From a bacterium (GTDB lineage Bacteria; Bacteroidota; Bacteroidia; Flavobacteriales_D; Crocinitomicaceae), in the NCBI GenBank assembly GCA_024742305.1, contig JANSYQ010000003.1, forward strand, positions 1-64,000: a stretch of 64,000 nucleotides of DNA, read 5' to 3'. Made by a program: the position numbers and the translations under genes. A model generated the notes under the pieces. That model saw nothing but the letters and a program-made list of their open reading frames with translations, did no database searches and had not been told where the DNA came from. Of the stretch, positions 6,160-46,643 are shown piece by piece. Numbering within the stretch: the first letter of the stretch is position 1; the number at the start of each line of letters is the position of its first letter.

Positions 6160-7686
6160 ATGATTCAATACGTTGAGAAACTATTTCAAGAAACCAAGAC
6201 AATCATCTTGCCGGGCCTAGGCGCCTTGACCATTACCAATCCTGACACGAAGGAAATGATGTTCATGCCTTATCTAAAGCATGACGATGGTGTGTTGGCT
6301 GGATTCATTGCCAAAGAAGGAGAAATGTCTGCTGAGGATGCAAAGAAATTGGTTTCTGATGAAGTAAATAAAATGCTCAATGAAATCGAAAGTGGAAAAT
6401 CTGTACCCTTTGGTAACTATGGAAGTTTTAGCAAGGACGCAGATGGAGACATGACGTTTGAAAATTCGGAAAATGAATCAGCTCCGGAATTAGAAAACAA
6501 AAAAGCTGAAGAGGAAGCGGCTGCTAAGAAAAAGGCTGAGGAGGAAGCCAAGGCTAAAAAAGAAAAAGAAGCTGTTGATAAAAAGAAAGCTGACGAAGAA
6601 GCCAAAGCCAAAAAAGAAAAAGAAGCTGCTGATAAAAAGAAAGCAGACGAAGAAGCCAAAGCCAAAAAAGAAAAAGAAGCTGCTGATAAAAAGAAAGCAG
6701 ACGAAGAAACCAAAGCTCATGCTTCGGCCGCTTCGACAAGCTCAGGGCAAGCAAGCTCAGCAACCAAAAAAGAAGCAGCAGACAAGAAGAATACTTCGAC
6801 CCCTTCGAAAGGCTCAGGACAAGCAAGCCCAGTAACCTCAGAAGAGGAAACAAAAGCCACTCCTCCGAAAACTGAAAAGCCGAAAGAATCGGCTGCGAAA
6901 GCCGCAACTGTCAGCCAAGTTATTCCGGATTTGGATTCAAAAAAGGAGGAAACCAGCAATGATAAGAAGGTAGCAACTACCGGATCGTCTTCTATTGCAT
7001 CCAAGCAGGCAAAACAGAAGAACATCCTCGAAAAAGAAGAAATTGCCTCTAACCAAAAGAAGTTAGACAAACTCAAAAAAGATAAAGAAGCCCCAAAGAA
7101 AAAACGTAAGCGTGGACCAGGCTTCTACATTTTGTTAGTACTCATTTTCATCATTGTCGCTGGCGGTACTTTTGTCGCTATCAACTATGAGCAAGCAAAG
7201 GAATATTTACCATTCTTGGCTGAAAGCACGGCAGCCGAACCTTCCGAGGATGACGAGAATGATATGCTTTCTGAGCCCCAGGAAGAGCCAACGGAAAATT
7301 CAGAGACCAGCGACTCTGAGACCACAAGTGAAGATGAAACAGGCGATACAGAAAATACCGAATCGTCTGAGGAAAACGCTACCGAGGAAGAAGACACGGT
7401 TGTAGAGGAAACGCCTGAGGTGAAAACAGAGCCAACACCAACAACAACCAGCTCCGGAAGCAACAATCAGGCATACCACATCGTTGCTGGTGTATTCAGC
7501 GAAGCAGCCAACGCAGAACGTTTAGCCGCTAAAATCCAAGGAATGGGATATCCGGCAAAAACTTTCCAGCGCGGAGCACAAACAGTCGTGAGCGTTCAGT
7601 CGTACGCTACAGCTGCTGAAGCCCAAGCGGCACTCTCCTCTGTTGCAGATGCTGCTCCGAAAGGATGGGTGTTATATTGGAAGTAA
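6160..7686 (+). CDS. HU-CCDC81 and SPOR domain membrane protein
   Basis: A 508-residue single-pass protein. Residues 1-110 match the tandem HU-CCDC81 domains found in Bacteroidota (IILPGLGALTI, then GNYGSF with an acidic end). A highly charged region rich in K, E and A follows (about 110-335), partly built of 18-residue repeats. One transmembrane helix lies near residues 327-347 (GFYILLVLIFIIVAGGTFVA), then an acidic linker, then a C-terminal SPOR domain (YHIVAGVFSEAANAERLAAK to WVLYWK). SPOR domains bind denuded glycan strands at division sites, so it likely links a cytoplasmic DNA-binding-like module to septal peptidoglycan (inference). Two REP-like sequences sit in frame in the linker. It ends before a convergent gene. 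Confidence 0.9.
   Translation: MIQYVEKLFQETKTIILPGLGALTITNPDTKEMMFMPYLKHDDGVLAGFIAKEGEMSAEDAKKLVSDEVNKMLNEIESGKSVPFGNYGSFSKDADGDMTFENSENESAPELENKKAEEEAAAKKKAEEEAKAKKEKEAVDKKKADEEAKAKKEKEAADKKKADEEAKAKKEKEAADKKKADEETKAHASAASTSSGQASSATKKEAADKKNTSTPSKGSGQASPVTSEEETKATPPKTEKPKESAAKAATVSQVIPDLDSKKEETSNDKKVATTGSSSIASKQAKQKNILEKEEIASNQKKLDKLKKDKEAPKKKRKRGPGFYILLVLIFIIVAGGTFVAINYEQAKEYLPFLAESTAAEPSEDDENDMLSEPQEEPTENSETSDSETTSEDETGDTENTESSEENATEEEDTVVEETPEVKTEPTPTTTSSGSNNQAYHIVAGVFSEAANAERLAAKIQGMGYPAKTFQRGAQTVVSVQSYATAAEAQAALSSVADAAPKGWVLYWK
6556..6717 (+). repeat. Three 54-bp coding tandem repeats (18 codons each)
   Basis: Three near-identical 54-base units at about 6556-6609, 6610-6663 and 6664-6717 encode repeats of the form KKEKEAADKKKADEEAKA. 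They differ by only a few bases (GTT/GCT, GCT/GCA, GCC/ACC), which points to recent copy-number change. The unit length is a multiple of three, so gain or loss keeps the frame and only changes linker length. Confidence 0.85.
6731..6824 (+). repeat. REP-like palindrome sequences inside a coding region
   Basis: Two related segments, CTTCGACAAGCTCAGGGC (6731-6748) and CTTCGAAAGGCTCAGGAC (6803-6820), each followed by AAGCAAGC, interrupt the K/E/A-rich linker of the SPOR protein and are read as S/G/Q/A/T-rich peptides (STSSGQAS, TPSKGSGQAS). They resemble the intergenic elements at 23735 and 46694 (CTTCGACTGGCTCAG). Codon content and amino-acid composition differ sharply from the flanking repeats. 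Confidence 0.6.
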
Positions 7687-33654: not shown

Positions 33655-33721
33655 AGTCAGAAGTCAGAAGTCAGAAGTCAGAAGTCAGAAGTCAGAAGTC
33701 AGAAGTCAGAAGTCAGAAGTC
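33655..33721. repeat. Heptanucleotide tandem repeat (about 9.5 copies)
   Basis: The unit AGTCAGA is repeated head to tail without error from 33655 to 33721, directly after the DUF5686 stop. Single copies also appear near 39772 (AAGTCAGAAGT). It is not a CRISPR array: there are no spacers. Such perfect short arrays are prone to slippage. Confidence 0.95.
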
Positions 33722-33770
33722 ATTTAAGAAAATACCAACTTCTCACCTTTCCCTTCTCACTTTTTACTGA

Positions 33771-44510: not shown

Positions 44511-44518
44511 TATCTTTG
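44511..44518 (+). promoter_or_regulatory. -7 element of sufS, near-leaderless
   Basis: TATCTTTG fits TAnnTTTG and ends four bases before the sufS ATG (44523). The nearest TTG (44477) is 31 bases away, so the -33 box is uncertain. Transcription should begin at or next to the ATG. Confidence 0.55.
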
Positions 44519-44522
44519 CACT

Positions 44523-45755
44523 ATGAATGAAACAATCGTGAAGTTGGACGTAGAGAAAATAAGATCGGAATTTCCCACCTTGCACCAAGAGGTCTACGGG
44601 AAGCCGCTCATTTACTTTGATAACGGTGCGACAGCGCAAAAACCGCAGTCAGTCATTGATGCCGTAGCTAAGTACTATTCAAAAGACAATGCGAACATTC
44701 ATCGAGGTGTTCATCATCTCAGTCAAGTAGCCACAGAACAATACGAGGAGGCTCGAAAAATCATTCAAAAAGCCATCAACGCGCCAACATCTGAGCAAGT
44801 TTTATTCACCAAAGGAACGACCGATGGGATCAACCTAGTTGCTTATTCATACGGGCAGTTGTTGAAAGCTGGAGATGAAATCATCATCTCTGAAATGGAA
44901 CATCACTCCAACATCGTACCGTGGCAAATGCTCTGCGAACGTCAAGGTTGTGTGTTGAAAGTGATTCCAATCAATGAGAAAGGTGAGCTGAAAATGGATG
45001 TTTTTGAATCCTTTCTTTCGGACAAAACAAAGTTGGTTTCGGTAACGCATATTTCGAACACCCTCGGCACCATCAACCCGATAAAAGAGATTATCGAAAA
45101 AGCACATGTAGTCGGGGCCAAAGTCTTAATCGACGGTGCGCAAAGTATTCAGCACGCCAAAGTAGATATGCAAGAACTCGACTGTGATTTCTTCGCATTC
45201 TCCGGACACAAAGTTTTCGGTCCAACAGGTGTAGGAATTTTATATGGAAAGAAAGAGGTTTTGGATAGCATGCCTCCGTATCAAGGCGGTGGTGACATGA
45301 TTGCGAAAGTGACCTTCGAAAAGACGACGTATAACGAACTGCCCCACAAATTTGAGGCAGGAACTCCAAATATTGCTGGGGGTATCTGCCTTGGAACAGC
45401 CTTTGAATATTTGAACAATCTCGACATGGAAGCCGTACATGCACACGAACAGGAGTTATTGGAATACGCAGAATCGGAATTGAAGAAAATCAACGGAATT
45501 CGTTTGATTGGAACAGCAGACAAAAAAACCAGTGTTGTTTCATTTGTGGTGGAAGGAACGCACCCTTTCGACATTGGAACCCTACTAGACAAACAAGGCG
45601 TAGCTGTTCGAACGGGACACCATTGTACGCAGCCATTAATGGATATTTTTCAGATTCCCGGTACCGTACGTGCATCGTTCGCCTTCTACAATACGAAAGA
45701 AGAAATTGATGTGTTCATTACCGCACTGAAAAGAAGCGTAAACATGTTGCTATAG
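44523..45755 (+). CDS. sufS: Cysteine desulfurase SufS
   Basis: A 410-residue PLP enzyme that takes sulfur from cysteine for Fe-S cluster assembly. Motifs are YFDNGATAQKP, NIHRGVHHLS, FTKGTTDGINLVAYSYG, SEMEHHSNIVPWQM, the PLP-Lys in FFAFSGHKVFGPTGVGILYG, and the catalytic Cys in VRTGHHCTQPLMD. Usual length. It forms a short unit with sufE and a DUF59 gene downstream, but sufB, sufC and sufD are not next to it, so the SUF genes are split in this genome. It has its own near-leaderless promoter. Confidence 0.95.
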   Translation: MNETIVKLDVEKIRSEFPTLHQEVYGKPLIYFDNGATAQKPQSVIDAVAKYYSKDNANIHRGVHHLSQVATEQYEEARKIIQKAINAPTSEQVLFTKGTTDGINLVAYSYGQLLKAGDEIIISEMEHHSNIVPWQMLCERQGCVLKVIPINEKGELKMDVFESFLSDKTKLVSVTHISNTLGTINPIKEIIEKAHVVGAKVLIDGAQSIQHAKVDMQELDCDFFAFSGHKVFGPTGVGILYGKKEVLDSMPPYQGGGDMIAKVTFEKTTYNELPHKFEAGTPNIAGGICLGTAFEYLNNLDMEAVHAHEQELLEYAESELKKINGIRLIGTADKKTSVVSFVVEGTHPFDIGTLLDKQGVAVRTGHHCTQPLMDIFQIPGTVRASFAFYNTKEEIDVFITALKRSVNMLL

Positions 45756-45776
45756 GATTGCGGATAACTAACTTTG
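45747..45776 (+). promoter_or_regulatory. Promoter left on the broken sufE copy
   Basis: TTG (45747-45749, inside the end of sufS) and TAACTTTG (45769-45776) with a 19-base spacer fit the Bacteroidota consensus exactly. Four bases follow before the ATG of the truncated sufE copy (45781), the same layout as at sufS. Confidence 0.65.
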
Positions 45777-45780
45777 TAGT

Positions 45781-45876
45781 ATGACACTTCAGGAAAAAGA
45801 ACAAGATATAATTGACGAGTTTGCCATCTATGATGATTGGATAAGAAAAAACGAAGTTTTTGAAGACCGAGGCTGA
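45781..45876 (+). pseudogene. Truncated copy of the sufE 5' end
   Basis: The first 62 bases match the start of the intact sufE (45919-45980) with one silent change (GAT/GAC), so the peptide starts MTLQEKEQDIIDEFAIYDDW. The homology ends in a REP-like stretch (45844-45905, with GAGGCT and AGCC arms) and the frame stops at TGA 45874-45876, giving 31 residues. The gap between the two ATGs is 138 bases. It probably acts as an upstream reading frame on the sufE message. Confidence 0.8.
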
Positions 45877-45918
45877 GCCAGGCGGGCGAAGTAGCCGAGG
45901 GAAAATACGAATACTTAC

Positions 45919-46329
45919 ATGACACTTCAGGAAAAAGAACAAGACATAATTGACGAGTTTGCCATCTATGATGATTGGATGGACAAGTACGAGTACATCA
46001 TCGAACTTGGAAAAGAACTGCCTCTTATCGACGAAAAACTCAAAACAGACAACCGATTGATAGAAGGGTGTCAGTCGCGAGTGTGGCTGCACACCAACTT
46101 TGACGGTGAAAAAATGCAGTTTTCGGCAGACTCCGACGCCATCATCACCAAAGGAATTATCGCCTTGTTGATTCGCGTTTTCAATGACGAGTCACCTAAA
46201 AATATTGCCAGCAGCTCCTTACGATTCATTGATGAGATTGGACTGCACGAACACTTGTCTCCTACCCGCTCCAATGGATTGGCGAGCATGATTCGAACAA
46301 TGAAAATGGAGGCACTTAAACAGGTATAG
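45919..46329 (+). CDS. sufE: SufE-family sulfur acceptor
   Basis: A 136-residue cytoplasmic protein that accepts persulfide sulfur from SufS. Motifs are DEFAIYDDWMDKYEYIIELG (11-30), NRLIEGCQSRVWLHTNF with the active Cys near residue 52, and SSLRFIDEIGLHEHLSPTRS with the typical SPTR end. Length is normal. The stretch before its ATG has no -7 promoter box (TACGAATACTTAC), so transcription must come from the promoter of the broken copy 138 bases upstream or from sufS. The DUF59 gene starts two bases after its stop. Confidence 0.93.
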   Translation: MTLQEKEQDIIDEFAIYDDWMDKYEYIIELGKELPLIDEKLKTDNRLIEGCQSRVWLHTNFDGEKMQFSADSDAIITKGIIALLIRVFNDESPKNIASSSLRFIDEIGLHEHLSPTRSNGLASMIRTMKMEALKQV

Positions 46330-46331
46330 CT

Positions 46332-46643
46332 ATGAGTTCAATGGAACTGGAAAATAAAGTAATCGACATTCTGAAAACGATCTACGATCCGGAAATTCCG
46401 GTAGATATTTTCGAACTAGGGTTAATTTACGAAGTAAAAATTGGAAAGGAAGGACACGTCGATATTGAGATGACACTTACCTCTCCGAATTGCCCCGTTG
46501 CTGAATCACTTCCGAAAGAAGTAGAAGATAAGGTTGCGGGTGCTGAAGAGTTCACCTCTTGCAAAGTAAACATCGTGTTCGATCCTCCTTGGGACAAAGA
46601 CATGATGAGTGAAGAAGCTCAGCTAGAACTCGGGTTCCTCTAA
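46332..46643 (+). CDS. DUF59/MIP18-like Fe-S assembly protein (SufT type)
   Basis: A 103-residue protein of the DUF59 family: LENKVIDILKTIYDPEIPVD (6-25), DIFELGLIYEVKI, MTLTSPNCPVAESLPKEVED with the conserved Cys, and VNIVFDPPWDKDMMSEEAQL near the end. SUF-linked members help mature or deliver Fe-S clusters. It lies two bases after sufE and is part of the same message. The start at ATG 46332 has an alternative Met at residue 4. Confidence 0.9.
   Translation: MSSMELENKVIDILKTIYDPEIPVDIFELGLIYEVKIGKEGHVDIEMTLTSPNCPVAESLPKEVEDKVAGAEEFTSCKVNIVFDPPWDKDMMSEEAQLELGFL

Follow-up and report, generated by a model that had tools for sequence, protein, structure and literature searches.

A duplicated sufE start, possibly kept as a leader reading frame between sufS and sufE in a Fluviicola-like bacterial genus

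Ahead of the intact sufE gene in the 64,000-nt stretch of bacterial DNA analysed here (the window, from the genome designated G000), the beginning of that gene is present a second time, and the question raised by this locus is whether the extra start is a broken remnant or a reading frame that is kept. A first-pass annotation had described a 62-base sufE start occurring twice, 138 bases apart, with one silent difference, and its coordinates and counts were correct: 61 of the 62 bases are identical between the upstream copy (c1) and the copy that begins the intact gene (c2), the single difference being GAT/GAC at codon 9. The upstream copy stops after 31 codons, as had been described (frame 45781-45873, TGA at 45874-45876), 42 nt 5′ of the sufE ATG, and in G000 the first upstream ATG lies 25 nt past the sufS stop. 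The proposal that the sufE start has been duplicated, that a short repeat separates the two copies, and that an upstream reading frame results is supported. The duplication was also said to begin exactly at the ATG, which holds in G000, but in G031 (locus L156) the likeness begins 10 bases further upstream. The features of the locus are collected in Table 1, in which the name sufS is based on the PF00266 match and the position ahead of sufE, and the element boundaries were drawn by comparison with a second copy in the same genome (L002) and with copies from the genus.

Table 1. Features of the sufS-sufE locus, in positions of the window
Feature	Position	Strand	Basis or remark
sufS	44523..45755	+	Open reading frame; Pfam PF00266, E 5.4e-154; cysteine desulfurase, class V aminotransferase fold
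Promoter-like TTG-N19-TAACTTTG	45747..45776	+	Ends four bases 5′ of first ATG
Upstream reading frame, 31 codons plus stop	45781..45876	+	Residues 1-20 equal SufE residues 1-20, up to Trp20
Upstream copy (c1) of sufE start	45781..45842	+	Repeat comparison
Small repeat element between the copies	45843..45903	+	Starts AAGA, ends near GGGAA; related dispersed copies
Hairpin AAAAAC-GAA-GTTTTT	45847..45861	+	Left end of element; pairing kept across nine sufE-linked sequences
Probable degraded remnant of sufE codons just past the putative insertion point	45904..45918	+	Recognisable in G000
Second copy (c2), beginning of intact sufE	45919..45980	+	Repeat comparison
Intact sufE, 136 aa	45919..46329	+	Pfam PF02657, E 3e-46; E. 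coli SufE 1mzg, E 1.5e-22
PF01883 iron-sulfur assembly gene (SufT-like)	46332..46643	+	Pfam; next gene 3′ of sufE

The repeat of the sufE start exceeds chance. Four families of local direct repeats are present in the window, and only in the sufE pair is a gene start repeated over 62 bases; of the other three families, one lies inside an open reading frame, and two are short-unit arrays as judged by their letters rather than by comparison against reading frames. Elsewhere in the window, one open reading frame contains three copies of a 54-base repeat (6508-6716) in which codons for lysine, glutamate, and alanine abound, and a short tandem array of AGTCAGA units is found at 33655-33729. A genome-wide habit of duplicating gene starts was considered and rejected, with no second case in the 1.10 Mb scanned of the 4.09-Mb genome: no other repeat pair had a reading frame of at least 80 codons starting in one copy, with one antisense exception, in which such a frame starts on the strand opposite a longer reading frame that spans both copies.

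Comparison of the same locus in relatives, which the first-pass annotation had suggested, showed that the arrangement recurs. A SufE search of 60 relatives returned second, N-terminal-only matches in other species, mostly beside sufE, and the upstream DNA was read at 30 loci, 29 of them from this genus. A pattern for the left junction (GGAT^AAG) was run, with two mismatches allowed, against 240 genomes of the family and gave eight matches in seven genomes (G000, G032 twice, G016, G009, G031, G029, and G013), all of them in one Fluviicola-like, freshwater-type genus (7 of 34 genomes), and no match to the same two-mismatch pattern in the remaining 206 family genomes. The carriers share a left part that runs from the ATG to GATTGGAT (or GACTGGAT) and is followed by AAG and a small hairpin and, later, by the intact sufE. 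By eye, a scrap resembling AATACGAATACATCAT, the sufE codons lying just downstream, stands out on the 3′ side of the hairpin repeat in G031 and G029; it can still be made out in G000, is faint in G016 and G009, and was not recognised in G032 and G013. A recognisable scrap is also present in a relic in G018, where the call was scored and not made by eye. Relics were found in three more genomes: G018 retains this scrap and the right end of the element (local score 15, with 2 of 1000 shuffles as high), G028 has an element without a sufE start, and G020 has a sufE start that is truncated and lies 290 nt upstream. Among 80 named loci, two were positive (L035 and L042, the same records as G032 and G009) and the other 78 had upstream scores of at most 14.5.

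The genomes of the genus are drafts of 7-800 contigs, and sufE is present in 33 of the 34. Because the full arrangement is absent from 26 of these 33, the upstream copy is dispensable. In the 19 readable genus genomes with neither copy nor relic, sufE follows sufS at a distance of 5-19 nt in 11 and of 39-219 nt in eight. At L022, L028, and L033 (G014, G031, and G020, of one subclade), the space between the two genes holds minisatellite-like repeats, with units such as GATGAGT, GAAAGGT, or GTTGGAA.

The element that separates the copies is a dispersed hairpin repeat. Its core pattern gave 14 matches in nine of the 34 genus genomes, four of them linked to sufE (G028, G031, G016, and an extra one inside the G013 copy) and ten elsewhere. 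Two copies were found in the genome of the window, including one that overlaps a gene end and carries the hairpin twice, flanking a GC-rich core (L002, G000:C40:246201-246274). In G013, a second element copy lies inside the upstream sufE fragment (L020, G013:C269:1-200), the frame of which is still open at 45 codons. Across nine sufE-linked sequences, 90.7% of cells in the hairpin are paired, compared with 28-46% when the hairpin is slid, and five of six pairs have changed on both sides in a compensatory manner; of 500 shuffles, none was paired to such a percentage or scored as high for covariation, 24 had as many changed pairs, and 318 had as many further pair types. Rfam 15 covariance models gave no match at E up to 1 at seven loci.

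REP sequences are small palindromic repeats mobilised by RAYT (Y1_Tnp) enzymes, and the element resembles them in being a short, mostly intergenic hairpin repeat with compensatory stem changes. It differs in that the genome of the window holds two element copies and no match to Y1_Tnp (PF01797), in a search for which the control matched in five of 14 known genomes; RAYT mobilisation in this genome was rejected on that ground. Insertion of the element had been proposed as a possible cause of the duplication, and the arrangement is reminiscent of a transposon target-site duplication in that a repeat flanks the insert on both sides. The repeat is 62 bases long, however, and such flanks are lacking at all 11 element copies away from sufE, where flank-repeat scores are 8-11, compared with 49.5, 54.5, and 52 at the sufE loci L156, L158, and L162; the G028 relic (L154) scored 8.5. 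A long target-site duplication by the element was accordingly rejected, and the absence of long flanks at those 11 copies argues that insertion did not give rise to the duplicated sufE start.

The history of the arrangement was examined on a tree that combined SufS and the PF01883 protein with the part of SufE after residue 20 (35 rows, two outgroups; the rows of G013 and G025 were poorly filled). Carriers fall in scattered places on this tree, requiring at least seven changes, and the hypothesis that they form a single clade is rejected (p 2.6e-56). We read this as a single gain followed by many losses, probably aided by recombination between the 62-base repeats. One origin is favoured because the left junction falls at the same base in every carrier. 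Among the element copies at other places, no common target was apparent by eye, which makes repeated identical insertion unlikely. Lateral spread within the genus may also have contributed, and in G032 and G013 the spacer may have been replaced since the origin. In the proposed sequence of events, the start of sufE would long ago have undergone a partial tandem duplication, once and in or near the ancestor of the genus, giving a second start between sufS and sufE, and a small hairpin repeat would have inserted behind codon 20 of the upstream copy. The shared left junction supports the common origin, and we infer the order of duplication and element insertion. Recombination between the copies would have homogenised the pairs in G000, G016, G029, and probably G013, amplified the copies in G032 and probably G013, and, as the distribution and the relics suggest, deleted the upstream copy in many species. 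Partial tandem gene duplications under concerted evolution likewise have copies that are more alike within than between species and are amplified or lost by recombination; here, unlike in that case, the upstream part differs from its gene mostly at silent sites even where the pair has diverged.

This silent bias carries the argument for a kept reading frame. Over the 19 codons after the ATG, c1 was compared with the sufE of the same genome in six pairs, and 24 of 29 differences were silent and five non-silent (silent/non-silent: G000 1/0, G032 9/0, G016 1/2, G009 4/2, G031 8/1, G029 1/0); the other upstream copy of G032 (8/0) and the hand-aligned G013 (0/0) stood outside the tests. A model with a neutral c1 and a fully constrained sufE, in which codons are treated as independent, predicts 63-73% non-silent differences, and under it the probability of five or fewer non-silent differences in 29 ranges with the transition bias from 7e-7 to 6e-10, or from 1e-3 to 5e-5 with only 14 changes assigned to c1. 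Simulations matched on the number of differences equalled the observed bias in 0 of 4000 runs for G032, 1 of 4000 for G031, and 3-5% for G009. When differences were polarised by sister species, c1 had acquired 10 silent and two non-silent changes and c2 nine silent and none non-silent, with eight differences left unassigned, three of them non-silent. Between species, the non-silent:silent counts summed over 15 pairs were 73:87 for c1-c1 and 63:101 for c2-c2, an all-pair comparison that is less telling than that of own pairs.

The upstream frame is open in all eight upstream copies read, at 27-46 codons in the seven carriers, and Trp20 is present in all eight, with tails after codon 20 that differ between species. 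Against constraint, G016 leans the other way and G009 is borderline, in a data set that is small, with six pairs of 19 codons each. In a fragment that is decaying, changes of amino acid should prevail, yet most of the differences are silent, so the upstream copy looks maintained as a short frame for SufE residues 1-20, and the description of the first copy as broken becomes doubtful. Gene conversion from a foreign allele outside the sample could give the look of such constraint; none of 34 sufE starts had fewer than eight differences from the c1 of G032, G031, or G009, and a foreign donor was rejected among the starts compared, with unsampled donors possible.

Several other readings of these data have to be weighed. 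An artefact of assembly or strain mixing is very improbable: the assemblies are drafts, and contigs end in the repeat region in G029, where copy and gene lie on two contigs with an exact 69-base overlap within the spacer, and by eye in G013, where the contig starts inside an apparent further upstream unit, but seven genomes share the left junction with different spacer sequences, and three more hold relics. The first-pass suggestion of an assembly artefact, like that of a fresh break, is opposed by the same observations. A decaying partial duplication without function, its similarity refreshed by gene conversion, is unlikely as well; patchy presence, relics, tails that vary past codon 20, and the two non-silent differences out of three in G016 would all fit such decay, and it is the silent bias, strongest in G032 and G031, that opposes it. 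It is also rather unlikely that the upstream frame lacks a function of its own and serves as a recombination shuttle, in which spacer-deleting crossovers would make the c1 bases the real sufE start, siblings would return duplicated alleles, and selection would act on c1 while it serves as that start. This would explain the many absences of the upstream copy on the tree and two features of G009, in which c1 codons 2-5 (Ser, Leu, Glu, Ser) are nearer to the single-copy sufE of the sister G011 (Ser, Ile, Glu, Ser) than to its own sufE (Thr, Leu, Glu, Gln), and the copies differ at one base only in the 3′ part, as after a conversion tract. Frequent switching between the two states would be required, however, and the comparison covers one genome per species.

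A special case of a kept coding frame is a micropeptide, in which SufE residues 1-20 with a variable tail would dock on SufS through the Trp20 region and temper SufE binding. That such a SufE-derived peptide competes with SufE at SufS, or primes it there, is likewise considered improbable. The kept part ends at Trp20, which phmmer pairs with Trp20 of E. coli SufE (1mzg), and in the E. coli SufS-SufE structure SufE touches SufS through four regions, in one of which this residue is described as the critical one (PMC11408855). On the other side, an end at Trp20 follows from the place of element insertion, and the other contact regions (Cys51, Asp74, and Arg119) are missing. If a micropeptide were made, the operon would be using a fragment copied from SufE, the enzyme partner it encodes, to regulate the transfer of sulfur.

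That the old duplicated start has been kept as a leader reading frame encoding SufE residues 1-20 in the sufS-sufE operon is, by a small balance, the probable reading. The frame is short, open, and close 5′ of a gene, and the small data set described above points to selective maintenance, with G016 against and G009 borderline. Against this reading stand the lack of the full arrangement in 26 of the 33 genomes, the truncated copy of G020, and a right-hand junction that was not recognised in G032 and G013. It occupies the place that the sufE start holds behind sufS in relatives, which makes a leader role the most likely one. In six carriers, the stop of the nearest upstream frame lies 22-60 nt 5′ of sufE, and in G029 it would lie about 10 nt from sufE if the two contigs overlap as measured. 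A ribosome coming off sufS would reach the upstream frame before sufE, and a translated leader would most likely set the amount of SufE relative to SufS; such a relay is the simplest role that the arrangement suggests. The locus resembles leader reading frames and coupled genes in having a short frame 5′ of an operon gene, with an ATG that overlaps the sufS stop as ATGA in G009; such an overlap is one of the forms named for termination-reinitiation coupling in PMC6728339. It differs from them in that the frame copies the start of the gene it precedes and is seemingly kept for its amino-acid sequence. Two related mechanisms were rejected. Read-through from c1 into sufE is opposed by start offsets of 138, 122, 130, 150, 139, and 164 (G013) nt, which leave no constant frame. 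A transcription attenuator was rejected for G000, in which 45650-46050 contains no terminator-like site and the whole leader folds no better than shuffles (z 0.47, with 132 of 200 as good).

Expression of the two copies had been explained by a promoter left on the first, and this holds in part. The promoter-like match lies where it had been reported, four bases ahead of the first ATG, and the second copy is indeed without the box, as there is no further TAnnTTTG before the sufE ATG. The match alone is weak evidence because it is not rare in shuffles (one full match in the window, with 1.2 expected; 53 TAnnTTTG, with 54.8 expected), and its support comes from two sister species that keep TAnnTTTG behind sufS. 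The feature is local, however: TAnnTTTG occurs between sufS and sufE in G000 and its sisters G021 and G018, whereas the remaining 25 rows with a readable sufS end all lack it (six rows, G013, G027, G002, G029, G025, and G011, are without one). The two sisters keep the box without the full duplication. Outside these three genomes, sufE expression presumably relies on read-through from sufS. A TAnnTTTG box also precedes sufS (TATCTTTG at 44511-44518), exactly four bases 5′ of its ATG (44511-44522 with the spacing); the box-to-ATG spacing is equal at sufS and at the first sufE copy, and both starts are perhaps leaderless or nearly so.

Open-licence papers, judged by title or the start of the abstract, contained no report of such a sufE duplication or leader, or of REP or intergenic tandem repeats in Fluviicola, and the duplicated sufE start is probably a genus-specific variant of a leader reading frame for which no earlier paper was found in that literature. 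Partial duplications beside genes are usually read as scars, and this one persists with signs of protein-level constraint. If it is translated, it would represent a simple route from the start of a gene to a leader peptide of its own, and a control point between SufS and SufE.
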